DNA from: Pseudomonas laurentiana | GTDB taxonomy: Bacteria > Pseudomonadota > Gammaproteobacteria > Pseudomonadales > Pseudomonadaceae | NCBI RefSeq assembly: GCF_014648275.1 | Contig: NZ_BMQU01000003.1 | Location: 1 to 64,000, forward strand | Direction of reading: 5' to 3' | DNA: 64,000 nucleotides | In this document: positions 14,080 to 29,747 of the stretch, one piece after another | How positions within the stretch are numbered: position 1 is the first letter of the stretch | Layout of the letters: the number at the start of each line of letters is the position of its first letter | Notes under the pieces: generated by a model | What the model was told of the DNA's origin: nothing | Databases searched by the model: none | What the model saw: the letters and a program-made list of their open reading frames with translations, nothing else | Made by a program: the position numbers and the translations under genes

Positions 14080-14433
14080 TTGGCGATAGCTCCCAAGCAG
14101 GGGGATGTGCTCCCCGTAACCCCCCCCTAACACCGCCAAGCACCCCTGAAAAACTGCATATCCATGACATCCAGAAGGCAGACGAGGGCGAGTCATCTGT
14201 GAGCCAAGTTTCGGGAATGGGAAGCGATTGGCAGAACGCCGGGGAGGGTGCGTTGGCTAGGGGGGATGGGCCGAAAATCGGTTCCAAAACTGAAACGGCG
14301 ACCCTTTTGGTATGCGGCCTGTAGCCATGCCGTTTCGTCTTTGTTTTGGAATCGATCAAGTATCGCGCCAGGCGATACCTGCCAGCGCGAAATACGCATT
14401 CTTGCCCAGGCTTATTCGCGTATAAGCCTGTTC
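14080..14433. other. non-coding gap between IS and catabolic island
   Basis: The gap contains poly-C runs and no credible gene. The right part (14362-14398) is the promoter region of the first LysR gene and includes a degenerate nod-box-like site. Confidence 0.45.
14362..14398 (+). promoter_or_regulatory. degenerate nod-box-like site upstream of the first LysR gene
   Basis: One perfect ATC-N9-GAT half-site (14362-14376) is followed by a 7-bp spacer. The second half (14384-14398) keeps only the GCG core. It lies 36 bp before the LysR start and is the weakest member of the series found across the island. Confidence 0.45.
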
Positions 14434-15363
14434 ATGCGCTATCGACGTCTGGACCTCAACCTGCTGGTCGCCCTGGATGTGCTGCTCGAAGAGTGCAGCG
14501 TCAGCCGGGCTGCGCAGCGCCTCAACCTTGGCCAGTCAGCGACCAGCGCTGCACTGGGCCGGTTACGCGAGCACTTTCAGGACCCGCTTTTGCTGCCGGT
14601 AGGGCGTGGCCTCGAACCGAGTGCCCTGGCGCGCCAACTGGCACCTAAGGTGCGCGAAGTGCTGAGCCTGACGGGCGAAGTGGTGGAGATGTCGGCGGCA
14701 TTCGACCCCGCCCGCTGTGACCGGCGCTTCATCCTGGTGGCCTCGGACTATGTGGCGGCCACCCTGGTTCCGGCGGTCAGTCGTACCCTGGCGCGGGTAG
14801 CGCCCGGTGTGTCGCTGGTGGTGCGTGACCTGCCGCTGCCGCGTGACGGCGATGTGGTGGCCGAGGCGCTGGACTATCGACGCAGCGACCTGGTGATCGT
14901 GCCGCAGCCGCGCATCAACCCGCGCTACCCCCACGCCTCGCTGCTCCAGGATGAGCTGTGTTGCATCGTCTGCGCAGACACTCCCGGCTACCAACAGGGC
15001 CTGAGCCTGGCCGACTACTGTGCGGCCGGGCATGTGGTGCGCGAATTCAGCCATGGCCAGAACCTTTCGCTGGACACCCAGCACCTGCGCGAGATGGGTA
15101 TCGAACGGCGACTCGATGTGGCAGTGCAGAGCTTTGCCCTGATGGCTGAATTCGTCGTCGGCACGCCGCGTATTGCCACGCTGTTCCGCCGCCAGGCCGA
15201 GGCGCTGGCGCGACGCTACCCCCTGCGCGTGCTGGCGTCGCCCATTGTCTTTCCGGTGGCCTCGCAAGTCCTGCAGTGGCAGCCGCAGCAAGCCTCTGAC
15301 CCGGCCCTGGCCTGGCTTCGCCAGGTGCTGACGGAGCAGGCCGAGGTGCTGGATCAGGGCTGA
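14434..15363 (+). CDS. LysR family regulator, NodD/NahR-like subgroup
   Basis: This 309-residue LysR protein begins MRYRRLDLNLLVALDVLLEE, the opening shared by NodD, NahR and LinR. The HTH follows (SVSRAAQRLNLGQSATSAALGRLR), then a periplasmic-binding-like effector domain from about residue 90. The subgroup responds to aromatic compounds or flavonoids. The ATG at 14434 starts exactly at this conserved opening; the longer frame upstream is not family-like. It is convergent with the GlcG-like gene (9-bp overlap at the ends), and it guards the left end of the island. Confidence 0.86.
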   Translation: MRYRRLDLNLLVALDVLLEECSVSRAAQRLNLGQSATSAALGRLREHFQDPLLLPVGRGLEPSALARQLAPKVREVLSLTGEVVEMSAAFDPARCDRRFILVASDYVAATLVPAVSRTLARVAPGVSLVVRDLPLPRDGDVVAEALDYRRSDLVIVPQPRINPRYPHASLLQDELCCIVCADTPGYQQGLSLADYCAAGHVVREFSHGQNLSLDTQHLREMGIERRLDVAVQSFALMAEFVVGTPRIATLFRRQAEALARRYPLRVLASPIVFPVASQVLQWQPQQASDPALAWLRQVLTEQAEVLDQG

Positions 15364-15797
15364 TGGTCGCCGGTATCTGCGACCAGCCCGTGGCTTTCGA
15401 TGGCCAGCAGGGCGCAGCGCTCGTCGTTGTCCGAGGTGTCGCCACTGACGCCGATCGCACCCAGGACACGGCCCTCGGTATCACGTATCAGGATGCCCCC
15501 GGGCACGGGAATCACCTCGCCGTCGGTTAGGCAGTTGATGGCCGCGAAGAACGCCGGCATCGCTTGGGCACGGCGAGCCAGTTCGCGGCCACCCAAGCCC
15601 ATGCCCAGGCAACCACGGGCCTTGCCGGTAGCGATCTGCGGGCGCAGGAAGCTGGCCTGCTGGTCGCGCAGCACCGCCAGTGGATGCCCTGCGCTGTCGA
15701 GCACGGCGGCTGCCAACGGCCGCATGCCCAGGGTGTGGGCGTGGCGCAGGGTGGTGGCGGCCAGTTGCGCGGCCAGTTCGAAGTCCAGAGTAGGCAT
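15354..15797 (-). CDS. GlcG/HbpS family heme-binding-like protein
   Basis: This 147-residue protein shows the GlcG/HbpS fold pattern: AAAVLDSAGHPLAVLRDQQA, then PGGILIRD.EGRVLGAIGVSG near residue 115. Members bind heme or act as accessory proteins of catabolic operons; many gene neighbourhoods for aromatic degradation contain one. The start at 15797 lies 3 bp beyond the stop codon of the upstream amidohydrolase (stop at 15800), so the two form an operon. Confidence 0.82.
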   Translation of the reverse strand: MPTLDFELAAQLAATTLRHAHTLGMRPLAAAVLDSAGHPLAVLRDQQASFLRPQIATGKARGCLGMGLGGRELARRAQAMPAFFAAINCLTDGEVIPVPGGILIRDTEGRVLGAIGVSGDTSDNDERCALLAIESHGLVADTGDHQP

Positions 15798-15799
15798 GT

Positions 15800-17143
15800 T
15801 CACAGGCTCCATTTGCCGAGTTCGGCTACGCGGTCGCGGGTGTAGAGGTCGGTCCATTTCAGCGAGTTGAAGTCAGACACCTGTTTGGGGTTGTAGCCGG
15901 TGCGTTGCAGGCGCACCGGCTCGCCGGCCTTGTACACGGCCAGCAGGCGACTGCGGTCCTGGAGGATGCGGATGTCGTCCAGGGGCGAGCCGTCCAGCAC
16001 CAGCAGGTCGGCCTGTTTACCCGTCTCGAGCGTACCGAGGGTCTCGCCCTTGGGCATCAGCCGGGCACCGACGTTGGTGGCGGCGTACAGCGCCTCGGCC
16101 GGGGTGAAGCCCAGGCGTCGTACCAGCAATTCGAGTTCGCGGGCATGCCATTCTCCATAGGGTGTGATGGCAAAGCCGCTGTCGCTGCCGCAGGCAAAGG
16201 GCACGCCGGCAGCCTTGGCGCGCTTGAGTACCGGTGTGCCCACCTCCAGCGTGCGTGCGCAATAACCGGCGTAGCCGGTGCTGATGGCGGGGTCGTGGGG
16301 CTGGCAGAAGTCCACGGTGTTCTGTGGGAAGGTCATGGTCGGTGCCAGCACGCTGCCTGCCTCAAGCAGCGCCTCGATGCAGGCATCGTCCATGTAGAAG
16401 GCGTGGAACACCAGGTCTACGCCGGCCTTGGCGGCATACATGACCGCCTCGCGGCCATAGGCGTGGGTGGCGACGCGGCAGCCGAGGCGGTGGGCCTCAT
16501 CGACCATTTCACGGGTTTCGTCGGCGGTGAAGGCGGCGATGATTTCACCGTTGGGGCGACGGTGGGTGCCGTCCATGGCGATTTTAATCAGGTCCACGCC
16601 ATCCTTGGCCTGCTTGCGGATCTGCGCGATGGCTTCGGTACGGCTGGTGACCAGCGCGGCGGTGAAGTATTCCGGCGCGCCGACACGGCTGGGGAACCAG
16701 TCGTTCAGGCTCTGCCGGTTGGTGATCACGCGGCTGCTGGCGGCGATGCGCGGCCCCTCGAACAGGCCGGCATTGACCGTGTTGCGCACGGCGATGCTGA
16801 GCTGGCCGCTGTCGCCGGGGCAGACCATCGAGGTCACGCCTGCGGCCAGTACGTGCTGGGCAAAGAACAGGCCGCGCAAGGCGCGAAATTCGTCGCTGGT
16901 CCAGATGTCGATGTCCTCTTCGCTCTGTGCATTGCCGAACGCCAGGTGGGTGTGCACATCCACAAGCCCAGGCATGACGAAGTGCCCCTGGGTTTCACGG
17001 TCACCAGGCCGGGGGCGCGGTGCCTCTGCGGTCGGCCCGACATGGCGGATCACGCCGCCTTCGATGATCAGCGTGTGCAACGGGCGGGCCTGCAGGCCTG
17101 TGCCGTCGAACAAGGTGGAGCAGTGCAGATGAAGGGCGCTCAT
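15800..17143 (-). CDS. metal-dependent amidohydrolase (imidazolonepropionase-like)
   Basis: This 447-residue TIM-barrel amidohydrolase has the metal-binding His pair in GLVDVHTHLAFG (about 60-71), a bridging-Lys candidate in DLIKIAMDG (about 190), His in CRVATHAYGRE and VFHAFYMDD, and the catalytic Asp in ACGSDSGFAITP (about 325). The C-terminal GTLETGKQADLLVLDGSPL is typical. It hydrolyses an amide, lactam or lactone. In this island a lactone or cyclic intermediate is plausible but unproven. It is transcribed with the GlcG-like gene, away from a nod-box-like site. Confidence 0.85.
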   Translation of the reverse strand: MSALHLHCSTLFDGTGLQARPLHTLIIEGGVIRHVGPTAEAPRPRPGDRETQGHFVMPGLVDVHTHLAFGNAQSEEDIDIWTSDEFRALRGLFFAQHVLAAGVTSMVCPGDSGQLSIAVRNTVNAGLFEGPRIAASSRVITNRQSLNDWFPSRVGAPEYFTAALVTSRTEAIAQIRKQAKDGVDLIKIAMDGTHRRPNGEIIAAFTADETREMVDEAHRLGCRVATHAYGREAVMYAAKAGVDLVFHAFYMDDACIEALLEAGSVLAPTMTFPQNTVDFCQPHDPAISTGYAGYCARTLEVGTPVLKRAKAAGVPFACGSDSGFAITPYGEWHARELELLVRRLGFTPAEALYAATNVGARLMPKGETLGTLETGKQADLLVLDGSPLDDIRILQDRSRLLAVYKAGEPVRLQRTGYNPKQVSDFNSLKWTDLYTRDRVAELGKWSL

Positions 17144-17305
17144 GGACGAATTCTCCTCGTCTTGTTGTTTGCCGGCAGGCTAGGCCGTGAGCGCTGCCAC
17201 GCACCAACAGATGCTGTAGATGGCCCGCCATCGATGCCGTCGATACCTGGCCAAGCCCTTGTCCTTTCTGGGCTGCACGGGAGAAGTCGAGGGGACTCAG
17301 CGAGT

Positions 17306-17342
17306 ATCGGCAGTGGCGATGCCTGGCATGGCGATTGGCGAC
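17306..17342 (+). promoter_or_regulatory. nod-box-like site between amidohydrolase and NTF2-like genes
   Basis: There is a perfect ATC-N9-GAT half (17306-17320), a 7-bp spacer, then ATG-N9-GAC (17328-17342), which is off by one base at each end. It lies 63 bp before the NTF2-like start. A further isolated perfect half-site at 17230-17244 faces the amidohydrolase. Confidence 0.6.
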
Positions 17343-17404
17343 TTTTCCTCGGGGCAGGGGTGGGGCGAGGATGCGCTCGCCAATCAATCACCGAGGACAA
17401 TTCC

Positions 17405-17785
17405 ATGAAGGCTATTCACGATCTGTTGCTGGGCCTGGAGGCCGAACGCCAGCGGGCCCTGGTACAGGAAGATCATGCCCGGCTCCACACGCTGTTCGAC
17501 GATGACCTGCTGTACGTGCACACCACCGGGCTGGTGCAGGACAAGGCGCAGTACCTGGACTATGCCCGTGACGCTGTGCACTACCTGGCGGTAGAGCGTG
17601 GCGAGTTGACGGTGAGGGTGTTTGCCGATGGCCTGGCGCTGATGAGCGGGGCGCAGTGCAACCTGCTGCAAAAGCGTGGCGGCGGCGAGCCGATGCGCGC
17701 CGAAGGCTTCGCCACGCAGCTGTGGGTGAAAGGCGAGGAGGGGTGGCGGATTGCAGCGTTCCACGGCACGCGGGCACCGGCCTGA
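17405..17785 (+). CDS. NTF2-like (DUF4440-type) protein
   Basis: This 126-residue NTF2-fold protein reads IHDLLLGLEAERQRALVQED, then LHTLFDDDLLYVHTTGLVQDK and a C-terminal WRIAAFHGTR strand. Proteins of this type act as small isomerases, dehydratases or binding proteins; the function here is unknown. The ATG at 17405 has GAGGA about 10 bp upstream. The open frame continues far upstream antisense to the amidohydrolase, but that part is not coding. The nod-box-like site 63 bp upstream places it in the island regulon. Confidence 0.8.
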   Translation: MKAIHDLLLGLEAERQRALVQEDHARLHTLFDDDLLYVHTTGLVQDKAQYLDYARDAVHYLAVERGELTVRVFADGLALMSGAQCNLLQKRGGGEPMRAEGFATQLWVKGEEGWRIAAFHGTRAPA

Positions 17786-17858
17786 TGACGCGGTGACCCG
17801 CTAGCAGGTACCCGGTCAGCCCTTGATGAGGCTGGCCGGGAACTGTCGGCGAAGGAGG

Positions 17859-19016
17859 TCAGGCGGTATGGCCACCGAGGGTCTCGGCGACCCAGTCGGC
17901 GATGTAGTGGCCGGCGTTGATGCTGTTGTCGAAGCTGGAGTGCTGCACGCCGCCTTCGCGGTCGGTGAAGATCTTCAGCTCGCGTTTCGGGCTGTTGACC
18001 AGTTGCTCGTAGGTGCGATGCGCCCATTTGAGCGGGATCTGCGAGTCTTTCTCGCCGTGGGTGACCAGGAACGGCACGCGAATGCGCTCCAGTACGCCGT
18101 CCAGGTGCACGTTTTCAGCGATACGCATGAAGTCGTCCATGTCCTTCGCTCCCCAGACCCAGCATACGTGTGCCCAGTAGTGTGGCACCGGGAAATTGCC
18201 TTCCTTCTCCAGGCGGCGCTTCTGCACATCGCGCCAGTCGTGGTTGGCGCCCCACACCACTCCGCAAGCGAAACGCTGCTCGAAGGCCACCGCGCGCGGG
18301 CAGTAATAGCCGCCCAGGGAGACACCCTCCAGGCCGATGCGCTTGGGATCGACGTCGGCACGGGTTTCCAGCCAGTCCACCACGCGGCTGGCCCAGTGCT
18401 CGCTGTCGTAGCGCGCGGTCAGGCCGTGCAGGCGCAGTGCTTCGCCAGTGCCGGGCTGGTCGATGATCAGCGACGACACGCCGCGCTTGGCCAGCCAGGC
18501 GGGCAGGCCGACGCGGTACTTCATCTCCTTGGTCGAATCCAGGCCATTGACCTGCACCAGCAGAGGCGCTGGGCCGCTGACGCCCTCGGCGCGCACCAGC
18601 AAGCCCGAGAGGTGCTTGCCCTCATAAGGGATTTCCACCCGCTCGCAGTTTTCTGCGGACAGGTCGATACCTCGCGCGAAGGTGTCCAGGAAGCGCTGGT
18701 ACAGGTCTGCGCGACCCGGCGCGCCATGGGCCTGCAGGCGTTCGCAGGTGAGGTAGTAGGTGGCGGCGCGGTTGTATTTCTCACCGGCGGAGAGGCGTCG
18801 GCCAGCCGCTTCGTCTTCCTCGGCCAAGGCGCAGAGTTTGTCGGCCATGTTCGACCAGGTTTCCCTGAAGGCCTGGGTACCGGCAGCATCTGGCTGCTTG
18901 GCGGCTTCCAGCAGCGGTGCGCACATTTCTTCGATTTCGCCCATGCGGGCGCCCATCTCGATGGCCAGGTCCACCGAGAGGTTCCAGACGTAGTTGGTGG
19001 GAAAGTAACGGAACAT
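17859..19016 (-). CDS. alpha/beta hydrolase, pseudooxynicotine C-C hydrolase/FrsA-like
   Basis: This 385-residue hydrolase has a helical N-terminal cap (1-130), then the alpha/beta core. The nucleophile is Ser233 in GLEGVSLGGYYCPRA, the acid Asp lies in VTHGEKDSQIP, and the His in GVQHSSFDNS. The large N-terminal cap and these motifs resemble 2,6-dihydroxypseudooxynicotine hydrolase, which cuts a C-C bond of a hydroxylated aromatic ketone. A comparable ketone-cleaving role would suit a flavonoid or aryl-ketone pathway. The best-formed nod-box-like site lies about 105 bp upstream on its strand. Confidence 0.82.
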   Translation of the reverse strand: MFRYFPTNYVWNLSVDLAIEMGARMGEIEEMCAPLLEAAKQPDAAGTQAFRETWSNMADKLCALAEEDEAAGRRLSAGEKYNRAATYYLTCERLQAHGAPGRADLYQRFLDTFARGIDLSAENCERVEIPYEGKHLSGLLVRAEGVSGPAPLLVQVNGLDSTKEMKYRVGLPAWLAKRGVSSLIIDQPGTGEALRLHGLTARYDSEHWASRVVDWLETRADVDPKRIGLEGVSLGGYYCPRAVAFEQRFACGVVWGANHDWRDVQKRRLEKEGNFPVPHYWAHVCWVWGAKDMDDFMRIAENVHLDGVLERIRVPFLVTHGEKDSQIPLKWAHRTYEQLVNSPKRELKIFTDREGGVQHSSFDNSINAGHYIADWVAETLGGHTA

Positions 19017-19121
19017 TTTTTGTTGTCCTTCTGCGGTCGTTGGGTACGGCGCCCAAAACTGCGGCAGGCACGCAGGGCGCGGTTCGCAAGCAAGGTACGT
19101 AGGCAGGGCAGGGCGGGGCCA

Positions 19122-19158
19122 ATCGTGATAAGGGATGCGAGGTATCGTGAAACGCGAT
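19122..19158 (-). promoter_or_regulatory. nod-box-like operator upstream of the alpha/beta hydrolase
   Basis: Read on the minus strand: ATC-N9-GAT (19158-19144), 7 bp, ATC-N9-GAT (19136-19122), then TGG. Both halves are perfect and share the internal bases ATCGCG and ATCCC with the sites at 20258 and 21709. Confidence 0.78.
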
Positions 19159-19198
19159 GCCCCGGCACCGTTGCGGTGGCCGGGGCGATGGTGGCGGT

Positions 19199-20137
19199 TC
19201 AGGCGGTGGCGCGCAGGGCACCTGGCTGCGTCTCGGCGCGCTGGATGAACTCGCTGATGCGCTCGCGCAGCCAGCGGTGCATGGGGTCACCCTCCATGCT
19301 GCGGTGCCAGAGCATGAACTCGCGCATCACCGGGATCTTCACCGGTGGCGGCAGGATACGCAGGGGCAGATAGCCGGCGTACAGCTCGGCCAGGCGACGG
19401 TGCATGGTGGCGATCCGCGGGGTGCCCACCAGTAACTGGGGCAAGGTGTTGAAGTCGTTGGTGATCACTTCCAGGCGGCGGTTGAAGCCGTACTGGTTCA
19501 TGAACCAGTCTTCGATACTCAGGTGGCGGTTGCGGCCAAAGCCCACCGAGATGTGCCCCATCTGCATGTACTGCTCCAGGCTCAACTGCTCGCCGACCTC
19601 GGGGTTGTCGCGCCAGACCATGCAGACATGGTCTTCCTCGAACAGCAGCTGTGCCGGATGGCCGTCGATCAGGTAGCGCTCGGGCACGATCATCATGTCG
19701 ACCTCGCCGCGCATCAGCAGCTCGGCGCTGCCGTCGCCGGGGCTGATCATTTCGAAGGTGATGTGCGGCGCCTGCTGGTGGATTTTCTGGAGAACCTGGG
19801 CGAACAGCACGCTGATCAGGTAGTCCGAGGCCACCAGGCGGAAGTGCCGCTTGCTGCTGGCCGGTTCGAACACCGGCTTGGCAGTGATTGACGAACGAAT
19901 GGTCAGCAGCACCTCGCGCACCGGCTTGGCAAGCTCCAGGGCGTAGGGCGTGGGCTGCATCTTGCGGCCGACCTGCACCAGCAGTTCGTCCTCGAAGAAG
20001 GTCCGCAAGCGGCCGAGCACGCCACTGGTGGCCGACTGGGTCATGTGCAGGCGTTCGGCAGCGCGGGTGATGTTCTGCTCATCGAGCAGGATGTCCAGGG
20101 CAACCAGCAGGTTCAGATCAAGGTGGTGAAAGCGCAT
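19199..20137 (-). CDS. LysR family regulator closely NodD-like
   Basis: This 312-residue protein begins MRFHHLDLNLLVALDILLDE, then has the HTH NITRAAERLHMTQSATSGVLG. Downstream blocks track rhizobial NodD strikingly well: PTPYALELAKPVREVLL, RHFRLVASDY, RGEVDMMIVPE, YMQMGHISVGFGR and GTPRIATM. NodD and the Herbaspirillum FdeR respond to flavonoids, so a flavonoid-like ligand is the best guess. It sits between two nod-box-like operators, divergent from the dioxygenase gene. The ATG at 20137 is chosen by family alignment; the longer open frame is not conserved. Confidence 0.88.
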   Translation of the reverse strand: MRFHHLDLNLLVALDILLDEQNITRAAERLHMTQSATSGVLGRLRTFFEDELLVQVGRKMQPTPYALELAKPVREVLLTIRSSITAKPVFEPASSKRHFRLVASDYLISVLFAQVLQKIHQQAPHITFEMISPGDGSAELLMRGEVDMMIVPERYLIDGHPAQLLFEEDHVCMVWRDNPEVGEQLSLEQYMQMGHISVGFGRNRHLSIEDWFMNQYGFNRRLEVITNDFNTLPQLLVGTPRIATMHRRLAELYAGYLPLRILPPPVKIPVMREFMLWHRSMEGDPMHRWLRERISEFIQRAETQPGALRATA

Positions 20138-20257
20138 GTGATAGCTCTCGGTTCTTGTAGTTATTTTCGCGATACCTTCCCGCTGGATTACCGATACGTC
20201 AATACCTTCCCCTTCTGCAGCCAGCCAACGCCAGGCGCCATGGGCTGGCGCACAGGT

Positions 20258-20294
20258 ATCGCGATTGCCGATGCCTCGCATCCCGACACGCGAT
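20258..20294 (+). promoter_or_regulatory. nod-box-like operator upstream of the dioxygenase gene
   Basis: ATC-N9-GAT (20258-20272), 7-bp spacer, ATC-N9-GAT (20280-20294), then TGGTCA. Both halves are perfect. The site lies 118 bp before the VOC dioxygenase start and 120 bp from the LysR start, so it could serve both. Confidence 0.8.
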
Positions 20295-20412
20295 TGGTCA
20301 CCCCGGCCCACCACCGAGCAACCTGCGCTCCAGTCGAACGGCCGCCATGCCGCCGCGACCCACTACCGGTGACCCTGGCTCGCCGAATAACAATTTCAAT
20401 GGAGTGGTAGCC

Positions 20413-21354
20413 ATGAACATTCTTGGTCTCGACGCGCTGGTATTCGGCGTCGACGATATACAGGCCTGTGCCGATTGCCTGCGTGACTATGGCCTGAAAG
20501 CCGTTCAATTGGACGCCGACGGTGGCCGTTTCGAAGCGCTGGACGGTACCGCGATCATCATCCGCCGCGGCGACGACAGCCGCCTGCCGCCAGCGCTGGG
20601 CCCTACGCCGTCGCTGCGTGAAACCATCTACGGCGTGGCCGCCGCGACTGACCTGGAGGCGATCGCCGACGAACTGGGCCGTGACCGCGCGGTGCACCGT
20701 GACGCCGGCGGCGCGCTGCGTACCGTCGATGACCTGGGTTTCGCCATCGCCTTCCAGGTGACCTGCCGCCGCGCCTTCGAAGCGCCGGCTGACCTCACCA
20801 ATGCCCCTGGCAGCGCGCCGCAGCGCCCGCTCAACCAGCTGGGCATCGCTCCAGACATGCCGGCCCTGCCACGCACCTTGTCCCACGTGGTGTACTTCGT
20901 GCCCGACGCGGCCAAGGGCGAAGCGTTCTATCGCGACCGCCTGGGCTTCGTCACCACCGACAGCTTCATCGGCGTCGGCCCGTTCATGCGCACAGCCGGC
21001 ATGGACGACCACCACTGCCTGTTCATGATCCAGACGCCGCCGCACATGCAGGGCTGCGAGCACTTCACCTTCCACATGGGCAGCGGCACCGAGGTGCTGC
21101 TGGCTGGCACGCGCTTCCAGCAGAACGGCTGGACCAGCTTCTGGGGGCCAGGCCGTCACCTGCTGGGCTCAAACTGGTTCTGGTACTTCAACAGCCCGCT
21201 CGGTTGCCACATCGAGTACGACGCCGACATGGACAAGCACGATGACGAGTGGGCGGCGCGCCAGGCGCCGATGTCGGCTGACAACTCGCAGCTGTTCCTG
21301 TTCACCTCGCGGGAGAAATGGGCACCGAGCGGCCCACCGCCGAAGCAGGGTTGA
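20413..21354 (+). CDS. extradiol-type VOC dioxygenase
   Basis: This 313-residue protein has two vicinal-oxygen-chelate modules, about 1-120 and 152-300. The C-terminal module carries the probable Fe(II) ligands His158 (RTLSHVVYFV), a His in CEHFTFHMG (217 or 221) and Glu268 (CHIEYDADMD), the 2-His-1-carboxylate set of ring-cleaving extradiol enzymes. GGAG lies 8 bp before the ATG at 20413. With the Rieske ferredoxin and the flavoprotein hydroxylase next door it forms the expected hydroxylate-then-cleave core. It corresponds in context to FdeC of the Herbaspirillum naringenin pathway (inference). Confidence 0.82.
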   Translation: MNILGLDALVFGVDDIQACADCLRDYGLKAVQLDADGGRFEALDGTAIIIRRGDDSRLPPALGPTPSLRETIYGVAAATDLEAIADELGRDRAVHRDAGGALRTVDDLGFAIAFQVTCRRAFEAPADLTNAPGSAPQRPLNQLGIAPDMPALPRTLSHVVYFVPDAAKGEAFYRDRLGFVTTDSFIGVGPFMRTAGMDDHHCLFMIQTPPHMQGCEHFTFHMGSGTEVLLAGTRFQQNGWTSFWGPGRHLLGSNWFWYFNSPLGCHIEYDADMDKHDDEWAARQAPMSADNSQLFLFTSREKWAPSGPPPKQG

Positions 21355-21357
21355 AGC

Positions 21358-21705
21358 ATGGGTTGCGTGGCGCTGTGCCGGCTCGATGCGCTGGGCGAAG
21401 GCCAGGCGCGCGGCTTCGACCCGCAGGGCAGGGGCGCGGACAGCTTGTTCGCCCTGCGCCACCGGGGCCGGGTCAGGGTCTACCGCAACCTTTGCCCGCA
21501 CCTGCTGGTGCCGTTGGAGTACCGCAAGGATCGCTTCCTGAGTGCCGATGGTCAGTGGGTCGTGTGCTATGCCCACGGCGCGCGCTTCCGGCCCGAGGAC
21601 GGCGCCTGCGTCCACGGCCCCTGCCGTGGCGAGGCCTTGCAGGTGCTGGTGCACCAGGAAACGGACGGCTGGCTGCTATTGCCGTTGGTGCAGCTCGAAC
21701 GCTGA
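21358..21705 (+). CDS. Rieske [2Fe-2S] ferredoxin
   Basis: This 115-residue single-domain Rieske protein has Cys46-x-His48 (NLCPHLLVP) and Cys70-x-x-His73 (VVCYAHGARF). It starts 3 bp after the dioxygenase stop, so it is translationally linked to it. A ferredoxin beside an extradiol enzyme usually keeps the iron reduced (as XylT-type ferredoxins do) or serves an oxygenase. No dedicated reductase is present in the island. Confidence 0.88.
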   Translation: MGCVALCRLDALGEGQARGFDPQGRGADSLFALRHRGRVRVYRNLCPHLLVPLEYRKDRFLSADGQWVVCYAHGARFRPEDGACVHGPCRGEALQVLVHQETDGWLLLPLVQLER

Positions 21706-21708
21706 CCT

Positions 21709-21745
21709 ATCGCGCCGCGCGATAGGTCGCATCCCGCGACGCGAT
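21709..21745 (+). promoter_or_regulatory. nod-box-like operator upstream of the flavoprotein operon
   Basis: ATC-N9-GAT (21709-21723), 7-bp spacer, ATC-N9-GAT (21731-21745), then TGGTCA. Both halves are perfect, and 22 of the flanking and core positions repeat the 20258 site. It lies 99 bp before the flavoprotein start and would drive the 13-kb run of co-directional genes to 35026. Confidence 0.82.
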
Positions 21746-21844
21746 TGGTCAACGCCCGGCGCAGCCGGGAAGCTGTGCCCAGGCACAGGAAACGGTCGCC
21801 TCGCATGACGGGGCGGACAACAAGAACAAGACGTGAGACATGCC

Positions 21845-22969
21845 ATGAATACTGTGAACAACGTACTGATCGTGGGTGGCGGGATTGGCGGGCTGTGCGC
21901 TGCCATCGCCCTGCGCCGCAAGGGCATTGCCGTCGATTTGGTCGAGTTGAAGACCGAATGGACCGTCTACGGGGTCGGCATCATCCAGCAGAGCAACGTG
22001 GTGCGCGAGATGCACCGTCTGGGCCTGCTCGAGGCCTATCTCGATGCGGCCTACGCCTTCGAGGATGTGGCCATCTACACCACCGAAGGGCAGCAGCTGG
22101 CGCGCTTCCCCGGCCAGCGCCTGGCCGGCCCGCAGTACCCGGCCAACGTCGGTATCTCGCGCCGCGCCTTGCACAAGGTGCTGAGCGAAACCGCCATCGA
22201 ACTCGGCACGCGGGTGCGCCTGGGCACCTCGGTGGAAAGCGTCGAGCAGGATGCCAGCGGCGTGGATGTCCTGTTTAGCGACAGCAGCCAAGGCCGCTAC
22301 GGGCTGGTGGTAGGTGCCGATGGCTTGTTCTCGAAAGTGCGCGGCTTGCTGTTCGGCGACCAGTACCAGCCGCGCTTCACCGGCCAGTCGGTGTGGCGCT
22401 ACAACTTCCCGCGGGCCGCCGGCATCGACCATCTGGCCAACTACCAGGGGCCATCGGGCAACGCTGGCCTGGTGCCGCTGGCCGATGACCTGATGTACCT
22501 GTTCACCACCTCGCATGAGCCCGGCAACCCCTGGATGGAGCCCGCCACCCTGGCGCAGGACCTGCGCCAGCGCCTGGCCGGTTTTGGTGGGCTGATCGGC
22601 GAGTTGCGCGAGCTCATCGATGACAGCGCCGAGGTCGTCTACAAGCCGTTGGAGGCGGTGTTCGTTGACGAACCCTGGTACCGCGGCCGCGTGCTGCTGA
22701 TCGGTGATGCCGCCCATGCCACCACGCCGCACCTGGGGCAGGGCGCCGGCATGGCCATCGAGGATGCCGTGGTCCTGGCCGAGGAACTCACCACCGACGG
22801 CAGCCTCGACGTACAGCTGCAGCGCTTCATGGGCCGGCGCTTCGAACGCTGCAAATTCATCAGCGAGATGTCCCTGCTGGCCGGCGAGAAGGAGGTCCAG
22901 CGTGACCCGTCCTTCGACCGCATCGGCTTGGTCAAGCAGATGCTGGAGGTTACCGCGCAACCGATCTGA
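21845..22969 (+). CDS. FAD-dependent aromatic monooxygenase
   Basis: This 374-residue class A flavoprotein hydroxylase has the FAD-binding GGGIGGLCAAIALRRKGI (about 9-26), the DG motif VVGADGLFSKVR (about 157-168) and GDAAHATTPHLGQGAGMAIEDA (about 285-306). These enzymes use NAD(P)H and O2 to hydroxylate phenolic rings. The ATG at 21845 (MNTVNNV) fits the family start; an in-frame GTG lies 12 bp upstream. It opens the large operon after the nod-box-like site and corresponds in context to FdeE, the naringenin 8-hydroxylase. Confidence 0.88.
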   Translation: MNTVNNVLIVGGGIGGLCAAIALRRKGIAVDLVELKTEWTVYGVGIIQQSNVVREMHRLGLLEAYLDAAYAFEDVAIYTTEGQQLARFPGQRLAGPQYPANVGISRRALHKVLSETAIELGTRVRLGTSVESVEQDASGVDVLFSDSSQGRYGLVVGADGLFSKVRGLLFGDQYQPRFTGQSVWRYNFPRAAGIDHLANYQGPSGNAGLVPLADDLMYLFTTSHEPGNPWMEPATLAQDLRQRLAGFGGLIGELRELIDDSAEVVYKPLEAVFVDEPWYRGRVLLIGDAAHATTPHLGQGAGMAIEDAVVLAEELTTDGSLDVQLQRFMGRRFERCKFISEMSLLAGEKEVQRDPSFDRIGLVKQMLEVTAQPI

Positions 22970-23072: not shown

Positions 23073-24743
23073 ATGTTGACTCGCAAAGGTGCATTCGCAC
23101 GGCCATTGCCGACGCTCAAGCCCCTCAGCCTGGCGCTTGTCGCGCTGGCTGCAAGCCAGGCGCAGGCCTTCGAATTCGACACCGGCAACCCCGACCTGCG
23201 GGTGCGCTGGGACAATACGCTGAAATACAGCGCCGCCTGGCGCACCCAGGACGCCAGCAGCAAGCTCACCGAAGGGCAGACCGCGCTGAACCTGGACGAT
23301 GGTGATCGCAACTTCGACAAGGGCCTGATCTCCAATCGCCTCGACCTGCTGTCCGAGCTGGACATCACTTATCACAACGTCGGCGCGCGGGTCAGTGGTG
23401 CGGCCTGGTACGACGATGTCTACAACCGGGGCACCGACAATAACGACCCCAGCCGCGCCAACAGCTATTCAGTCGGCTACGACGAATTTACCGACGACAC
23501 CCGCACCCTGCACGGGCGCAAGGGCGAGTTGCTCGATGCCTTCATCTTCGGCAAGACCGAGATCGGCGACATGCCGCTGTCCGGCCGTCTTGGCCAGTAC
23601 GCCATGCAGTGGGGCGAAAGCCTGTTCTACGGCATGAACGGCATCGCTGGCGGCATGGCGCCGGTGGATGTGGTCAAGGGCCTGTCGGTACCCAACACGC
23701 AGTTCAAGGAGTTGATCCGGCCGGTGCAGCAGATTTCCGGGCAACTTCAACTGACGCCGGATGTGTCGGTGGGGGCCTACTACCAGTTCGAGTGGGAGGC
23801 CAACCGCCTGCCGGCGGCGGGTAGCTATTTTTCCACAGACGACTTTTTCGGCGATGGCGCCGAGCGCATGTTCGTCGGGGCGCCGGTGTTCCCGGGTGGC
23901 CAGCCCCTGGCGTTCTTCCACGGCCACGATAAGCAAGCCAAGGACTCGGGGCAGGGCGGTGTGCAGTTGCGCTGGCGTACCGAGACGGTCGACTGGGGCC
24001 TGTATGCCATCCGCTTCCACGACAAGTCGCCGCAGCTCAACGTGCGCCCGGACTTCGCCAGCCTCGACCCGGTCAGCGGCAAGGCCGGCGAGTTCTACTG
24101 GGTGTACCCCGAAGGCATCGAAGCCTTTGGTGCCAGCTTCTCCACCACCCTGGGCAACTTCAACCTGGCCGGCGAATTGTCCACGCGCTGGAACCAGCCG
24201 CTGGCCTCTACCAGCCAGCATGCGTTGGCCGTGGGCGAGGCAATCGACAACGAAGACAACCCGCTGTACGCCACCGGCCGCACGCTGCACGCCAACTTCT
24301 CCTGGCTTGCCAGCCTGGAGCCGAACTTCATCGCTGCCGAGTCGAGCTTCCTTGGCGAAATCGCCTGGAACCGGGTGATGAGCGTGAGCAAGAACGCTGA
24401 TGCCATCGACCCCAACGCCGACCGCGACGCCACCAGCCTGCGCCTGGTGTTCGAGCCGATGTACCGGCAGATCCTGCCCGGCCTCGACCTGTCGGTGCCG
24501 ATCGGTGCGAGCTACACCAACGGCGCGTCGATGGCGCTGGGCACCGGCTTTGGCACCGACCATGGCGGCGACCTGAACATCGGCCTGAAGGGCAACTACC
24601 TCAACACCTGGAGCCTGGGCCTGACCTACACGCACTTCTACGGCCCGGAGAACACCTTCCTCGACGCCGACAGCCACTACACCTTCGAACAGTCGCTCAA
24701 AGACCGCGACTTCATCGCCTTCACCGTCAGCCGCACCTTCTGA
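23073..24743 (+). CDS. DUF1302 family outer-membrane protein
   Basis: This 556-residue protein has a signal peptide (hydrophobic stretch LALVALAASQAQA, cleavage near residue 32) followed by FEFDTGNPDLRVRWDNTLKY, the usual start of DUF1302. The rest is beta-rich with many aromatic strand ends and a terminal Phe (SRTF), as expected of an outer-membrane barrel. Members sit beside DUF1329 in operons for hydrophobic or aromatic substrates and are thought to move such compounds across the outer membrane. The start is fixed by GAGGAA and by the signal peptide. Confidence 0.88.
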   Translation: MLTRKGAFARPLPTLKPLSLALVALAASQAQAFEFDTGNPDLRVRWDNTLKYSAAWRTQDASSKLTEGQTALNLDDGDRNFDKGLISNRLDLLSELDITYHNVGARVSGAAWYDDVYNRGTDNNDPSRANSYSVGYDEFTDDTRTLHGRKGELLDAFIFGKTEIGDMPLSGRLGQYAMQWGESLFYGMNGIAGGMAPVDVVKGLSVPNTQFKELIRPVQQISGQLQLTPDVSVGAYYQFEWEANRLPAAGSYFSTDDFFGDGAERMFVGAPVFPGGQPLAFFHGHDKQAKDSGQGGVQLRWRTETVDWGLYAIRFHDKSPQLNVRPDFASLDPVSGKAGEFYWVYPEGIEAFGASFSTTLGNFNLAGELSTRWNQPLASTSQHALAVGEAIDNEDNPLYATGRTLHANFSWLASLEPNFIAAESSFLGEIAWNRVMSVSKNADAIDPNADRDATSLRLVFEPMYRQILPGLDLSVPIGASYTNGASMALGTGFGTDHGGDLNIGLKGNYLNTWSLGLTYTHFYGPENTFLDADSHYTFEQSLKDRDFIAFTVSRTF

Positions 24744-24757
24744 CCGAGGACTACCCG

Positions 24758-26125
24758 ATGAAACACAACAAGAAAGTCGTTTCCCTGTTCACTGCCCTGA
24801 GCGCCTCACTACTGTTCGCCCACGGCGCCGTTGCCGCAGTGTCCGCCGAACAGGCGGCCACTCTCAAGACTACCCTGACCCCCTTGGGCGGCGAGCGTGC
24901 TGGCAATGCTGATGGCAGTATACCGACCTGGACCGGTGGCTACACCAAGGCCGACCCGGCCTACAAGGAAGGCGGCAAGCGCGGCGACCCGTTTGCCAGC
25001 GACAAGCCGCTGCTGACCATCACCGCGCAGAACATGGCGCAGTACGCCGACAAGCTGGCGCCGGGCATCCAGGCGATGCTCAAGAAATACCCATACAGCT
25101 ACCGCCTTGATATCTACCCGACCCACCGCAGCGCTGCCGCGCCACAGTCGGTGTACGACGCCACCTTCGCCAACGCCACCAGCGGCAAACTGGTGGACGG
25201 ACCCGCAGGCCCCATGCCTGAAGGCGCATCCGGCGGCATTCCGTTCCCGATCCCGGCCAACGGCGTGGAAGCCATGTGGAACCACCTGCTGCGTTGGCGT
25301 GGTGCGTCCTGGCACGCCAGCTTCAACCAGTACCTGACCACCGCCGACGGCAAGCACGTGCTCACCAACGACTCGCGCGCCGACCTGCAGATGCCTTGGT
25401 ACCTGCCTGGCGGCAGTGGCGACAAGGGGGTGTTCTGGTCAATCCGCATGACCAACGACGGCCCGCCACTGCGCGCCGGCGAGGCCATCACCGGCCTGGA
25501 AAACCTCAACGCCGACAAAGCTGCGGTCTGGACCTACCTGCCGGGCCAGCGCCGTGTGCGCCGTCTGCCCAATGCTTGCTGCGACACGCCGACCCCGGCC
25601 ACCGCAGGAGTCATGAGTTTCGATGAGCTGTACGTGTTCAACGGTCGCCTTGACCGCTTCGACTGGAAGCTGGTGGGCAAGAAGGAGATGTACATCCCCT
25701 ACAACGCCAACAAGGTGTTCACTGCCAGTAACGCCGAGGCGCTGCTCGATCCGCATCACCTGACCCCCGAATCCATCCGCTGGGAGCTGCACCGTGTATG
25801 GGTGGTCGAGGCGACCCTGAAGAATGGCCAGCGCCACGTGATGCCGCGCAGCACCTATTACCTCGACGAGGACACCTGGGCGGCTGTGCTCGGCGAGCGC
25901 TACGACGCGCGTGACCAGTTGGCTAAGGTGGTCTGGACCTCGCCGGTGGTGCTGCCCGACCTGCCAGGCGTGGTGACCCTGACCAACGGCTTCTACGACC
26001 TGCTCTCCGGTGCCTGGTTCGCCGGGGACCTGTTCGCCGGCAAGAACGAGCAGTACCGCATCGTGCCGCCCTATAAGGACTCGGTATTCACCGCCGACGC
26101 CATGGCTGGCGAGGGCGTGCGCTGA
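24758..26125 (+). CDS. DUF1329 family periplasmic/outer-membrane protein
   Basis: This 455-residue secreted protein has a signal peptide ending near AHGAVAA (residue 27). It shows the family pattern LTPLGGERAGNADGSIPTWTGG and later GQRRVRRLPNACCDTP and VYVVEATLK-like WVVEATLKNGQRH. DUF1329 has a LolB/LppX-like fold and may bind lipids. It lies 14 bp after DUF1302 and always partners it. Confidence 0.9.
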   Translation: MKHNKKVVSLFTALSASLLFAHGAVAAVSAEQAATLKTTLTPLGGERAGNADGSIPTWTGGYTKADPAYKEGGKRGDPFASDKPLLTITAQNMAQYADKLAPGIQAMLKKYPYSYRLDIYPTHRSAAAPQSVYDATFANATSGKLVDGPAGPMPEGASGGIPFPIPANGVEAMWNHLLRWRGASWHASFNQYLTTADGKHVLTNDSRADLQMPWYLPGGSGDKGVFWSIRMTNDGPPLRAGEAITGLENLNADKAAVWTYLPGQRRVRRLPNACCDTPTPATAGVMSFDELYVFNGRLDRFDWKLVGKKEMYIPYNANKVFTASNAEALLDPHHLTPESIRWELHRVWVVEATLKNGQRHVMPRSTYYLDEDTWAAVLGERYDARDQLAKVVWTSPVVLPDLPGVVTLTNGFYDLLSGAWFAGDLFAGKNEQYRIVPPYKDSVFTADAMAGEGVR

Positions 26126-26177: not shown

Positions 26178-27239
26178 ATGAACAAGATGCTCTACGGCTG
26201 GCTGCTGGCAGCCTGTTGCGGGCTGCCGTCGGCCTTCGCCGGTGGTAGTGTGGATGTACTCGCGCAGCCCGCGGTGCAAGGGCCCCAGGCCCTGCATGCG
26301 GTGCTGCAGGACGTGGCCCGCGCCGGCGCGCGCCTGGTGTCGGTGGGCGAGCGTGGCGTGGTGCTGCTTTCCGACGACAACGGCGCGACTTGGCGCCAGG
26401 CCAAGGCTGTGCCGGTGAGCGTCAGCCTGACTGCCGTGCAGTTCGTCGACGAGCGCAACGGTTGGGCGGTCGGCCACGCTGGCGTGGTGTTGCACAGCGA
26501 GGATGGCGGCGAGCACTGGGGCTTGCAACTCGACGGCAAGCGCGCTGCCGCCCTGGAGGTGCAGGCAGCCGAAGCGTCCGCTGACGAAGGCCGCCTCGCG
26601 GCGGCGCAAAGGCTGCAGGCTGATGGCGCGGACAAGCCGCTGCTCGCGCTGAGCTTCGCCGATGCACGCCACGGCCTGGTCGTGGGCGCCTATGGCCTGG
26701 CCATGAGCACGGCCGACGGTGGGCGCAGCTGGCAGTCGGCCATGGGCCTGTTGCCGAATCGGCGCGGGCTGCACCTTTACGCACTGGCCCGCCAGGGCGC
26801 CAACCTGTACGTCGCCGGCGAGCAGGGCCTGCTATTGCGCTCGCGCGATGGCGGTGAGCATTTCGACGCGCTGCGAAGCCCGTACGACGGTAGCTACTTC
26901 GCTGCCGCCGTGTTGCCCGACGGCCGCCTGCTGGTCGGCGGCCTGCGCGGTTCGCTGTTCGCTTCCGATGACGGTGGCGACAGCCTCCAGGCGCTGGCCA
27001 ACCCGGTTCCGGCATCGCTCAATGCCATGCGCGTCGCGGGTGGCCAGTTGTTGCTCGCCAACCAGGCGGGGATGCTGCTGCGCAGTGGTCTGGAGCGATT
27101 TGCCGCGCAGCCTGTGGCGGTCTCCGATGGCCTGCCACTGACCGCCGCCACCGCCGCCGCCGACGGTGCCATCGTTGCCGTCGGCATGGCCGGCGCGCGC
27201 CGCCTGGAATCTTCCTCCCTTTCCACCACGACGGACTGA
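26178..27239 (+). CDS. YCF48-like beta-propeller protein (secreted)
   Basis: This 353-residue protein has a signal peptide (LYGWLLAACCGLPSAFA). Repeated Asp-box or BNR-like blades follow: LLSDDNGATWRQ, VLHSEDGGEHWGLQ, MSTADGGRSWQS, LLRSRDGGEHFD and FASDDGGDSLQA. This resembles the photosystem II assembly factor YCF48/HCF136 fold. In proteobacteria such proteins sit between DUF1329 and an RND pump, probably as a periplasmic adaptor. Function inferred from neighbourhood only. Confidence 0.85.
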   Translation: MNKMLYGWLLAACCGLPSAFAGGSVDVLAQPAVQGPQALHAVLQDVARAGARLVSVGERGVVLLSDDNGATWRQAKAVPVSVSLTAVQFVDERNGWAVGHAGVVLHSEDGGEHWGLQLDGKRAAALEVQAAEASADEGRLAAAQRLQADGADKPLLALSFADARHGLVVGAYGLAMSTADGGRSWQSAMGLLPNRRGLHLYALARQGANLYVAGEQGLLLRSRDGGEHFDALRSPYDGSYFAAAVLPDGRLLVGGLRGSLFASDDGGDSLQALANPVPASLNAMRVAGGQLLLANQAGMLLRSGLERFAAQPVAVSDGLPLTAATAAADGAIVAVGMAGARRLESSSLSTTTD

Positions 27240-27242
27240 GCC

Positions 27243-29747
27243 ATGCACGCCATGAATTCACCTGCGCCGTCCAGCGGCCGTCTCGACGACTTCGACAGCA
27301 CGTCCGGTTCGCTGCTGGAACGTGCCTTGTTCAACCACCGTGCGCTGGTGTTGTTGCTGTGCCTGGCAACGACCCTGCTGCTCGGTGGGCAGGCTTCGCG
27401 CCTGACCCTCAACGCCAGCTTCGAGAAGATGATCCCGCGCGATCACCCGTTCATCCACAACTACCTGGAACACCGCCAGGAACTTGCCGGCTTGGGCAAC
27501 GCCGTGCGTATCGCGGTAGCCAACCCGCGTGGCAGCATCTACGACAAGGACTACCTGCATAGTCTGCAGCAGCTCAACGACGCGGTGTACCTGCTGCCGG
27601 GGGTCGACCGTGCGGCGATGAAGTCGTTGTGGACCCCGTCCACCCGCTGGACCGGGGTGACCGAGGAAGGCCTGGAAGGCGGCCCGGTGATTCCTGATGG
27701 CTACGATGGCGCTGCCGCCAGCCTGGAGGCGCTCAAGCGCAACGTCGAGCGTTCCAACGAGATTGGCCAGCTGGTGGCCTTCGATCAGCGCTCGAGCATC
27801 CTCTACGTGCCGCTGCTGGAAAACACCCCGGACGGTCATGCGCTTGACTACTCGGCCTTCGCCCATGAGCTGGAGACTTTGCGCGAACGCTTTCAGGCGC
27901 AGGGCGTGGAGATCCACATCAGTGGTTTCGCCAAGGTCGTCGGCGACCTGATCGACGGGCTGCAGCAGATCCTGCTGTTCTTCGCCGCCGCCATCGCCAT
28001 CACCGCCGGTGTGCTGTACTGGTACACCCGTTGCGTGCGCAGTACCGCGCTGGTGGTGGTGTGCTCGCTGGTGGCGGTGATCTGGCAGCTCGGCCTGCTG
28101 CCGTTGCTCGGCTATGAGCTCGACCCCTACTCGGTGCTGGTGCCGTTCCTGGTGTTCGCCATCGGCATGAGCCACGGCGCGCAGAAGATGAATGGCATCA
28201 TGCAGGACATCGGCCGCGGCATGCATCGCTTGGTGGCGGCGCGCTTCACCTTCCGCCGGCTGTTCCTGGCCGGTCTCACCGCGCTACTGTGCGATGCCGT
28301 GGGTTTCGCCGTGCTGATGATCATCCAGATTCAGGTGATCCAGGACCTGGCGGTGATCGCCAGCCTGGGCGTGGCGGTTTTGATCTTCACCAACCTGATC
28401 CTGCTGCCGGTGCTGCTCTCCTATGTGGGCGTCAGCGGCCGTGCGGCGCAGCGCAGCCTGCGTGCCGAAGAGGGCGATGCCAGGGGGGCGCGCAAGCATG
28501 CGCTGTGGCGCTTCCTCGACCTGTTCACTCGCCGCCGCTGGGCTGCCGCGTGCATCGCCGTGGCCGCACTGATGGCTGCCGGAGGCTACGCCGTGAGCCT
28601 GCACCTGAAGGTCGGTGACCTCGATGCCGGCGCCCCCGAGCTGCGCGCCGATTCGCGTTACAACCGCGACAACGCGTTCGTCACCCGGCACTACGGCGCC
28701 AGTAGCGATGTCTTTGCTGTTATGGTGCGCACCGCCCCTGGTGGCTGCTCGGCCTATGACACCTTGAAACGCGTGGACGACCTGGACTGGCAGTTGCGTG
28801 GCCTGCAGGGCGTGGACTCGACCAACTCGCTGGCGCAGCTCAACCGCCGAGTGCTGGTCGGCCTCTCCGAAGGCAGCCCGAAGTGGTACGACCTTGTCAA
28901 CAACCAGGCGACCCTGAACATGGTCACCGCGGGCGCCCCTCGCGGGCTGTACAACGACGACTGCAGCCTGCTGACGCTCTACGCCTACCTCACCGATCAC
29001 AAGGCCGACACCCTGGCACGGGTAGTGGACAGCGTCCAGGGCTTTGCCCAGGCCAACGACAGCGACCAGGCCAGTTTCCTCCTGGCTGCCGGCAGCGCCG
29101 GTATCGAGGCTGCCACCAACCAGGTGGTGAAACAGGCCAACCGCGACATGCTCTGGTGGGTCTACGGCGCGGTGATCCTGCTCTGCCTGGTGACCTTCCG
29201 GTCCTGGCGCGCGGTGCTGTGCGCGGTACTGCCGCTGGTGCTGACCTCGATCCTCTGCGAAGCGTTGATGGTTGCCCTGGGCATCGGCGTGAAGGTGGCG
29301 ACCTTGCCGGTGATTGCCCTGGGCGTCGGCATCGGCGTGGACTACGCGCTGTACGTGATGAGCATCGTCCTGGCCCAGTTGCGCCAGGGCGCGAGCCTGT
29401 CCCAGGCGTACTACCGTGCGCTGTTGTTCACCGGCAAGGTCGTGATGCTCACCGGCATCACCCTGGCCATCGGCGTCGGCACCTGGATCTTCTCGCCGAT
29501 CAAGTTCCAGGCCGACATGGGCGTGCTGCTGGCCTTCATGTTCGTCTGGAACATGGTCGGCGCGTTGATCCTGTTGCCGGCGCTGGCCTACTTCCTCTTG
29601 CCGCAGCGTCAGGTGCGCGCGGATCAGGAGCGCCAGCCAGCATTGCCGACGTATGAACATACGACGAGGCAGCACGAGCACGCTGGTGCAACGGTGGAGC
29701 AGGGTGCCCGCTTGCGCCCGCTCAAGGAGATCAGTCATGGCCGCTGA
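27243..29747 (+). CDS. RND/MMPL family transporter
   Basis: This 834-residue inner-membrane protein has a first membrane helix near residue 37, a periplasmic loop, and five helices at about 230-400 (LLFFAAAIAITAGVLYWY onward). A second loop follows, then five helices at about 635-800, ending LILLPALAYFLLPQ. The two-fold layout is that of hydrophobe-exporting RND or MMPL proteins (HpnN or MmpL-like). Its end overlaps the MFS gene by 11 bp. With DUF1302, DUF1329 and the YCF48-like protein it makes a four-part envelope module for hydrophobic compounds. Confidence 0.9.
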   Translation: MHAMNSPAPSSGRLDDFDSTSGSLLERALFNHRALVLLLCLATTLLLGGQASRLTLNASFEKMIPRDHPFIHNYLEHRQELAGLGNAVRIAVANPRGSIYDKDYLHSLQQLNDAVYLLPGVDRAAMKSLWTPSTRWTGVTEEGLEGGPVIPDGYDGAAASLEALKRNVERSNEIGQLVAFDQRSSILYVPLLENTPDGHALDYSAFAHELETLRERFQAQGVEIHISGFAKVVGDLIDGLQQILLFFAAAIAITAGVLYWYTRCVRSTALVVVCSLVAVIWQLGLLPLLGYELDPYSVLVPFLVFAIGMSHGAQKMNGIMQDIGRGMHRLVAARFTFRRLFLAGLTALLCDAVGFAVLMIIQIQVIQDLAVIASLGVAVLIFTNLILLPVLLSYVGVSGRAAQRSLRAEEGDARGARKHALWRFLDLFTRRRWAAACIAVAALMAAGGYAVSLHLKVGDLDAGAPELRADSRYNRDNAFVTRHYGASSDVFAVMVRTAPGGCSAYDTLKRVDDLDWQLRGLQGVDSTNSLAQLNRRVLVGLSEGSPKWYDLVNNQATLNMVTAGAPRGLYNDDCSLLTLYAYLTDHKADTLARVVDSVQGFAQANDSDQASFLLAAGSAGIEAATNQVVKQANRDMLWWVYGAVILLCLVTFRSWRAVLCAVLPLVLTSILCEALMVALGIGVKVATLPVIALGVGIGVDYALYVMSIVLAQLRQGASLSQAYYRALLFTGKVVMLTGITLAIGVGTWIFSPIKFQADMGVLLAFMFVWNMVGALILLPALAYFLLPQRQVRADQERQPALPTYEHTTRQHEHAGATVEQGARLRPLKEISHGR

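Follow-up and report, generated by a model that had tools for sequence, protein, structure and literature searches.

A catabolic gene cluster of Pseudomonas laurentiana, found in a 64,000-nucleotide stretch of contig NZ_BMQU01000003.1 (hereafter the window), repeats the exact geometry of the rhizobial nod box before three to five of its genes, and across the genus these sites are closely linked to LysR2, the LysR-type regulator encoded in the middle of the cluster. LysR2 is probably a NodD/FdeR-type activator that acts on tandem dyads ahead of flavonoid A-ring-type catabolic promoters, in response to a flavonoid-like inducer. Comparative evidence makes a strong case for a NodD/FdeR-type regulon built on the nod-box layout. 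Precedents were known for each part, FdeR as a flavonoid regulator outside rhizobia and MexT for nod boxes in Pseudomonas.

An exact scan of the window for ATC-N9-GAT-N7-ATC-N9-GAT returned three matches, at 19122-19158, 20258-20294 and 21709-21745, and these were the only perfect matches in the whole 5.2 Mb genome. Allowing up to one mismatch added a single place in the window, at 63071 outside the cluster, and dinucleotide shuffles of the window gave a mean of 0.05 matches at that tolerance. A control pattern with a 10-bp spacer (N10) matched once in the same genome, on another contig. Two weaker sites, at 17306 and 14362, are off at 2 and 3 of the 12 fixed bases, respectively. The pattern reads the same on both strands. 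A scoring matrix made from 120 distinct orthologous sites of relatives, with the window excluded, ranked the same five places at the top of the 64 kb: 71.0 for 20258 (+), 58.2 for 21709 (+), 45.1 for 19122 (-), 2.1 for 17306 (+) and -3.9 for 14362 (+), the next different place scoring -21.0. On the opposite strand the first four scored -4.7, 9.5, -11.6 and -29.1, while 14362 fell below -29.1 and outside the 14 places listed. A first-pass annotation of the sequence had proposed three perfect and two weaker sites, each lying upstream of a cluster gene in the right direction; scan and ranking confirm the sites, and at the four with both strands among the places listed the better-scoring strand indeed points to the next gene downstream.

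The 19122-19158 site is located about 105 bp ahead of the alpha/beta hydrolase start, and the 20258-20294 site about 120 bp from the starts of both LysR2 and the divergently transcribed VOC gene. The third begins 3 bp past the stop of the Rieske gene, about 100 bp ahead of the flavin adenine dinucleotide (FAD) monooxygenase. All five operators, three strong and two weak, lie within about 7.4 kb (Table 1). Judged by its match to relatives, the start of LysR2 is most likely 20137 and not 20314, which places the 20258 site between the two divergent genes. The consensus of the three orthologous promoters extends beyond the fixed triplets (GGTATCGCG..., with an inner CATCC), and its tail after the last GAT, TTGGTCA, TTAGTCA or TTGGCCA, gives the site its direction.

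The sites are well conserved. Among the best 80 of 98 LysR2-relative loci found, 72 have at least one perfect site, and half-site pairs with a spacer of 7 occur 199 times, against at most 10 for every other spacer up to 40; the loci are mutually related, so the 199 pairs are not independent. Pairs with a 6-bp spacer, numbering 10, are the sole other spacing above 4. Taking as core the 56 loci whose VOC and monooxygenase genes are at least 70% identical, we found a perfect site in the gap separating VOC from LysR2 in 50 and one in the 300 bp preceding the monooxygenase in 50, and 49 of the 63 loci having the hydrolase show one within 250 bp upstream of it. Conservation of the half-sites in orthologous promoters, on which the first-pass annotation had staked its proposal, was thus found at each of the three strong operators. 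The fourth operator, at up to two mismatches, was evaluated in 45 loci whose amidohydrolase is at least 80% identical, and was present in 22/24 with the DUF4440 gene vs. 1/21 without it. Upstream of LysR1, the second LysR-type gene of the cluster, the score exceeds -10 in 25 of the 43 loci that offer enough sequence but not in the other 18, a perfect site being present in three; for 967 random 300-bp stretches the 99th percentile was -16.9 and the maximum 44.9. In the near relative G308 (97.3% identity across 16 kb) the counterparts of the three strong sites are all perfect, the fourth is off by one base, and the genome contains two more perfect sites elsewhere.

On the genus level, a perfect N7 site was found in 149 of 399 Pseudomonas genomes. 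The reversed pattern matched in only one of the 399, a control that we judged too lenient because its TAG and CTA triplets are probably rare in Pseudomonas, and the 10-bp spacer was therefore added as a fairer one. The latter matched in 30 genomes, at most once in each and including the genome of the window, so part of the 149 must be background or belong to other regulons. A LysR2 relative (E 1e-130 or better, the five best candidates per listed genome being scored) is encoded in 61 of the 399 genomes. At least two perfect N7 sites were counted genome-wide in 59 of these 61, compared to 4 of the 338 genomes without a relative (G241, G287, G351 and G358); the two exceptions with a relative are G023 with no site and G071 with one. 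In a class-wide search with the VOC protein, 2 of 369 genomes matched besides that of the window. The short loci around VOC matches (L115, L116 and L117) showed no site at up to one mismatch, and the 12 (one perfect) and 3 such matches in the two genomes, with 5 and 0 for the reversed control, are read as background.

Some LysR2 relatives stand in other surroundings. In L044, L046, L073, L077 and L064, LysR2 orthologues (83-87%) lie beside the transport genes and come with a pair of perfect sites separated by 48 to 90 bp, but VOC, hydrolase and monooxygenase genes are absent from the locus, which for L064 is a short one. In L021 a perfect site (at 1501) lies between a distant LysR2 relative (52%) and a divergent DUF1302-like gene, which is probably a sister regulon. 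The cluster genes are also present at 91-95% identity in a record named Pantoea sp. Ap-967 (L040), which may be a misnamed Pseudomonas.

LysR2 sits in the middle of the cluster and co-occurs with the sites. It is 41-43% identical to four NodD proteins, bearing out its earlier description as NodD-like. Identity is 44-46% for the regulators that accompany the fde-type clusters of Massilia, Azospirillum, Burkholderia and Diaphorobacter, 36-43% for the Roseinatronobacter, Roseomonas and Bradyrhizobium ones, and 47% for a Sphingobium LysR. Its two best matches in the PDB, at E 4e-48 and 6e-48, are effector domains of LysR proteins that carry no gene name; from their sequence we take them to be NodD. 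In the regulator tree 10 of the 27 inner branches are open, and the order of the NodD and fde-type groups is unsettled. NahR is a LysR activator of an aromatic pathway and was considered as a model. It was rejected, as it is only 31% identical to LysR2, which is clearly nearer to NodD and the fde-type regulators, and as the fetched 8.8 kb stretch of NAH7 contains no match at up to two mismatches. Two further plasmid stretches, in which no nahR is annotated, were left out of this comparison.

The likeness to nod boxes, claimed in the first-pass annotation from the pattern, holds against sites beside real nodD genes, which served as positive controls. In C. taiwanensis the pattern is matched perfectly in the interval from nodD to nodB. 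With one mismatch it occurs in S. meliloti, where it separates nodD1 from nodA, and in S. fredii, just upstream of nodD1. Each of the three is the sole match that good in its fetched locus. In the fetched stretch of Rhizobium sp. N741, where nodD1 is not adjacent to nodA, no match was found at up to one mismatch. The nod box is described as a 47-bp element with an ATC-N9-GAT motif (PMC5596368). The Pseudomonas operators share with it two ATC-N9-GAT dyads at a fixed 7-bp spacer. Common to both, too, is a site ahead of the regulator gene, which for C. taiwanensis and S. meliloti means the gap that separates it from divergent nod genes. By eye, however, their inner bases and tail are unlike those of the three rhizobial sites, and their neighbours belong to catabolic-type families rather than to nod genes, the comparison covering the neighbourhood of the sites and not the rest of the genome. 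No nod-box operators on this cluster are described in the titles and abstract openings of the open-access papers listed, whose coverage was limited.

The cluster resembles the fde and ifc flavonoid clusters, with orthology resting on domains and gene context. Pfam recognizes a glyoxalase/dioxygenase-type VOC protein, a Rieske protein and an FAD monooxygenase, and these are present together with a C-C-hydrolase-like protein whose best PDB match is the 2,6-dihydroxypseudooxynicotine (DHPON) C-C hydrolase. The monooxygenase has the GxGxxG and GD motifs and lacks the F motif, as is also stated for FdeE (PMC11303751). In Herbaspirillum seropedicae, the naringenin hydroxylase FdeED is reported to consist of the FAD monooxygenase FdeE working with the Rieske protein FdeD (PMC8552027), and the same kind of pair is encoded at 21358-22969. 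FdeR, a NodD-like flavonoid regulator outside rhizobia (PMC10799723), is accompanied by FdeED and the glyoxalase-type FdeC (PMC10799723, PMC8552027, PMC11069340), a likeness set by these descriptions and not by sequence. In contrast, FdeR sites are described in these accounts as T-N11-A boxes in a single intergenic region with a 60-bp footprint and not in terms of nod-box geometry, while the Pseudomonas cluster has at least three promoters, each with its operator. The ifc cluster of Variovorax is described with an FAD monooxygenase, a glyoxalase, an alpha/beta hydrolase likewise compared to DHPON hydrolase, and cupins, and IfcA homologues are reported in Pseudomonas (PMC11069340); here too the likeness is one of description, not sequence. 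A strain of P. thivervalensis is reported to have naringenin-degradation-like genes (PMC8515041), and another strain of that species carries the cluster (L085). A flavonoid-type compound is the likely inducer. As for the flavonoid-type regulon outside rhizobia proposed earlier, the flavonoid-type cluster stands on homology and context, and the proposal is less novel than it appeared, given the FdeR and MexT precedents.

Similar gene sets, not every gene being present in each, occur on plasmids of Diaphorobacter, Azospirillum, Burkholderia, Massilia, Paraburkholderia, Roseinatronobacter and Roseomonas, with the hydrolase at 62-89% identity (79-89% in 5 of 7), the VOC protein at 55-66% and the monooxygenase at 36-44%. 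A partial Bradyrhizobium cluster has the VOC protein at 55% and the monooxygenase at 33%, with no hydrolase in the stretch. Of the regulator-divergent neighbour gaps, those of Bradyrhizobium (L127) and Roseinatronobacter (L129) hold a site with one mismatch, in the former (L127:14870, on a Bradyrhizobium ottawaense plasmid) between the LysR and an FdeC-like gene. In four others the best match has 2 mismatches (Burkholderia) or 3 (Diaphorobacter, Azospirillum and Massilia), and the 3-mismatch matches are not above the level elsewhere in the same loci; the regulator gap of Roseomonas (L130) has no site, the best match there being at 5 mismatches. The cluster on the Pseudomonas plasmid CIP-10 (L125; hydrolase 81% and VOC 60% identical) has TetR and IclR regulators; its fetched stretch contains neither a LysR2 homologue nor, at up to one mismatch, a site. 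It is a hint or weak control, because monooxygenase and Rieske homologues are missing as well. In Roseomonas mucosa GlSt084 (L130:13761-14579) an IS5 transposase gene lies between two FAD-monooxygenase open reading frames.

Several observations weigh against the proposed role of LysR2 and a flavonoid-like inducer. Eight of the 80 LysR2-relative loci are without a perfect site, and L097 and L098, with LysR2 relatives at 74-77%, are without any, VOC and monooxygenase genes being absent from these two loci as well. DntR-type regulators match LysR2 nearly as well in the PDB (whole protein, E 1.7e-45), the pattern at up to one mismatch is present in just 2 of the 9 plasmid loci (CIP-10 included), and the two weak sites, at 17306 and 14362, may be inactive. 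The monooxygenase, moreover, is only 33-44% identical to its counterparts in the alpha- and beta-proteobacterial clusters, so that its substrate may differ. It is possible, if rather less probable than a flavonoid, that the same regulator and operators serve a stilbene, dihydrochalcone, lignan or other plant or soil polyphenol, or a later pathway intermediate. Such an inducer would fit the divergence of this first-step enzyme, which passes only the broad PRK06847 cut-off (the best 25 of 76 NCBIfam families being considered) and is likened to FdeE by context and motifs, not by direct comparison. Against it stand the joint presence of monooxygenase, Rieske, VOC, C-C hydrolase, cupin and fumarylacetoacetate hydrolase genes, which matches the fde and ifc reports and the plasmid relatives, and the P. 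thivervalensis case.

The identity of the binder is a separate matter. LysR1, itself NodD-like (35-38% identity to NodD) and preceded by a weak site, might bind the sites instead of LysR2, or share them as a pair, and the first-pass annotation had allowed it such a role. We consider this unlikely: the fetched DNA of 15 full-length core loci contains no LysR1 homologue, and all 15 still have two or three sites, so LysR1 seems dispensable, though a copy elsewhere in those genomes is possible, and genus-wide it is the presence of LysR2 that predicts the sites. A transposase-like open reading frame was noted by eye upstream of LysR1 (window positions 12566-13909).

Recognition of the sites by a general nod-box-binding LysR is very improbable. 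MexT would be an example, and its Pseudomonas sites are indeed called nod boxes, with the consensus ATYA(N7)YGAT (PMC11432991). MexT has other targets, and the half-sites of the strong operators begin with ATCG or ATCC and not ATYA, on which ground the MexT reading was rejected; in addition, the match of LysR2 to the MexT effector domain is far poorer (PDB, E 1.9e-11 vs. 4e-48) and the sites track LysR2, found in 61/399 genomes. Other perfect N7 sites in the genus do look like MexT boxes (L005, L006 and L013, at 1501; ATCAG...GTCGAT...TATC). By eye, their neighbours are an ArsR-type-like open reading frame (L005, L013), MFS-transporter-like (L005, L006) and old-yellow-enzyme-like (L013) ones. 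A further motif family (ATCAGC..ACGGATATTT..CATCCTAAATTACGAT) was seen in L010, L027 and at G308:C1:3504260, in the first two between a LysR-like and a divergent membrane-protein-like open reading frame.

A chance origin is practically negligible: the 12-base pattern does turn up in some large genomes, as the 10-bp spacer control illustrates, but conservation already refutes this explanation, and shuffles, spacer counts, matrix ranks and the co-occurrence with LysR2 speak against it.

For the activation by LysR2 that we favour, the following model may be proposed. A LysR2 tetramer would occupy the two tandem dyads, which are 22 bp apart from start to start, or about two helical turns. The last GAT appears to merge into a -35-like element, TTRGYC, with a -10-like element about 18 bp further on; by eye, GAAGCT, CAATCT or TAACGT could complete the pair, and at the VOC promoter of the window a spacing of 19 fits better. 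With the last GAT meeting the -35-like element, a tetramer with bound effector could turn on transcription of the hydrolase gene, of VOC and Rieske as a pair, and of the monooxygenase gene together with those that follow it on the same strand, presumably as an operon. A weaker input would reach the DUF4440 gene and LysR1. The inducer would be a flavonoid or a close plant phenolic.

These results suggest that nod-box-type control is not special to nodulation. More tentatively, and at somewhat less than even odds, the nod box might be older than nodulation, the NodD/nod-box pair having been taken from a widespread switch of flavonoid catabolism with the same 37-bp geometry. If so, the Pseudomonas regulon would be a living relative of that switch, and the one-mismatch sites on the Bradyrhizobium and Roseinatronobacter plasmids further members. 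Either way, a testable regulon with exact operators is at hand in about 15% of the sampled Pseudomonas genomes, and the class of compound likely to induce this common catabolic cluster is indicated. Where NodD and the nod box came from can now be approached by swaps between catabolic and symbiotic promoters.

Table 1 Operators and genes of the cluster, in window coordinates
Feature	Position	Strand	Remark
Operator 1, perfect	20258..20294	+	Between LysR2 and VOC dioxygenase genes, faces VOC
Operator 2, perfect	21709..21745	+	Between Rieske and FAD monooxygenase genes, faces monooxygenase
Operator 3, perfect	19122..19158	-	Faces alpha/beta hydrolase gene
Operator 4, weak	17306..17342	+	2/12 fixed bases off; faces DUF4440 gene
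Operator 5, weak	14362..14398	+	3/12 fixed bases off; faces LysR1
LysR1, second NodD-like regulator	14434..15363	+	39.5% identical to LysR2
HbpS-like protein	15354..15797	-	
Amidohydrolase	15800..17143	-	
DUF4440/SnoaL-like protein	17405..17785	+	Presumed target of operator 4
Alpha/beta hydrolase	17859..19016	-	Like 2,6-dihydroxypseudooxynicotine C-C hydrolase
LysR2, NodD/FdeR-type regulator	19199..20137	-	Likely binder of the sites
VOC extradiol-type dioxygenase	20413..21354	+	FdeC-like by domain and context
Rieske [2Fe-2S] protein	21358..21705	+	FdeD-like by context
FAD monooxygenase	21845..22969	+	FdeE-like by context and motifs
DUF1302 protein	23081..24743	+	Start not fixed; similarity to annotated plasmid genes
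DUF1329 protein	24758..26125	+	
YCF48-like protein	26178..27239	+	
MMPL-type transporter	27243..29747	+	
MFS-transporter-like protein	29734..30927	+	Start not fixed; family by eye and from gene order of relatives
SDR oxidoreductase	30924..31697	+	Similarity to annotated genes
Cupin protein	31709..32281	+	
Fumarylacetoacetate-hydrolase-family protein	32278..33270	+	
NAD-dependent epimerase/dehydratase	33264..34253	+	Start not fixed
Cyclase-family protein	34244..35026	+	Last of the same-strand run

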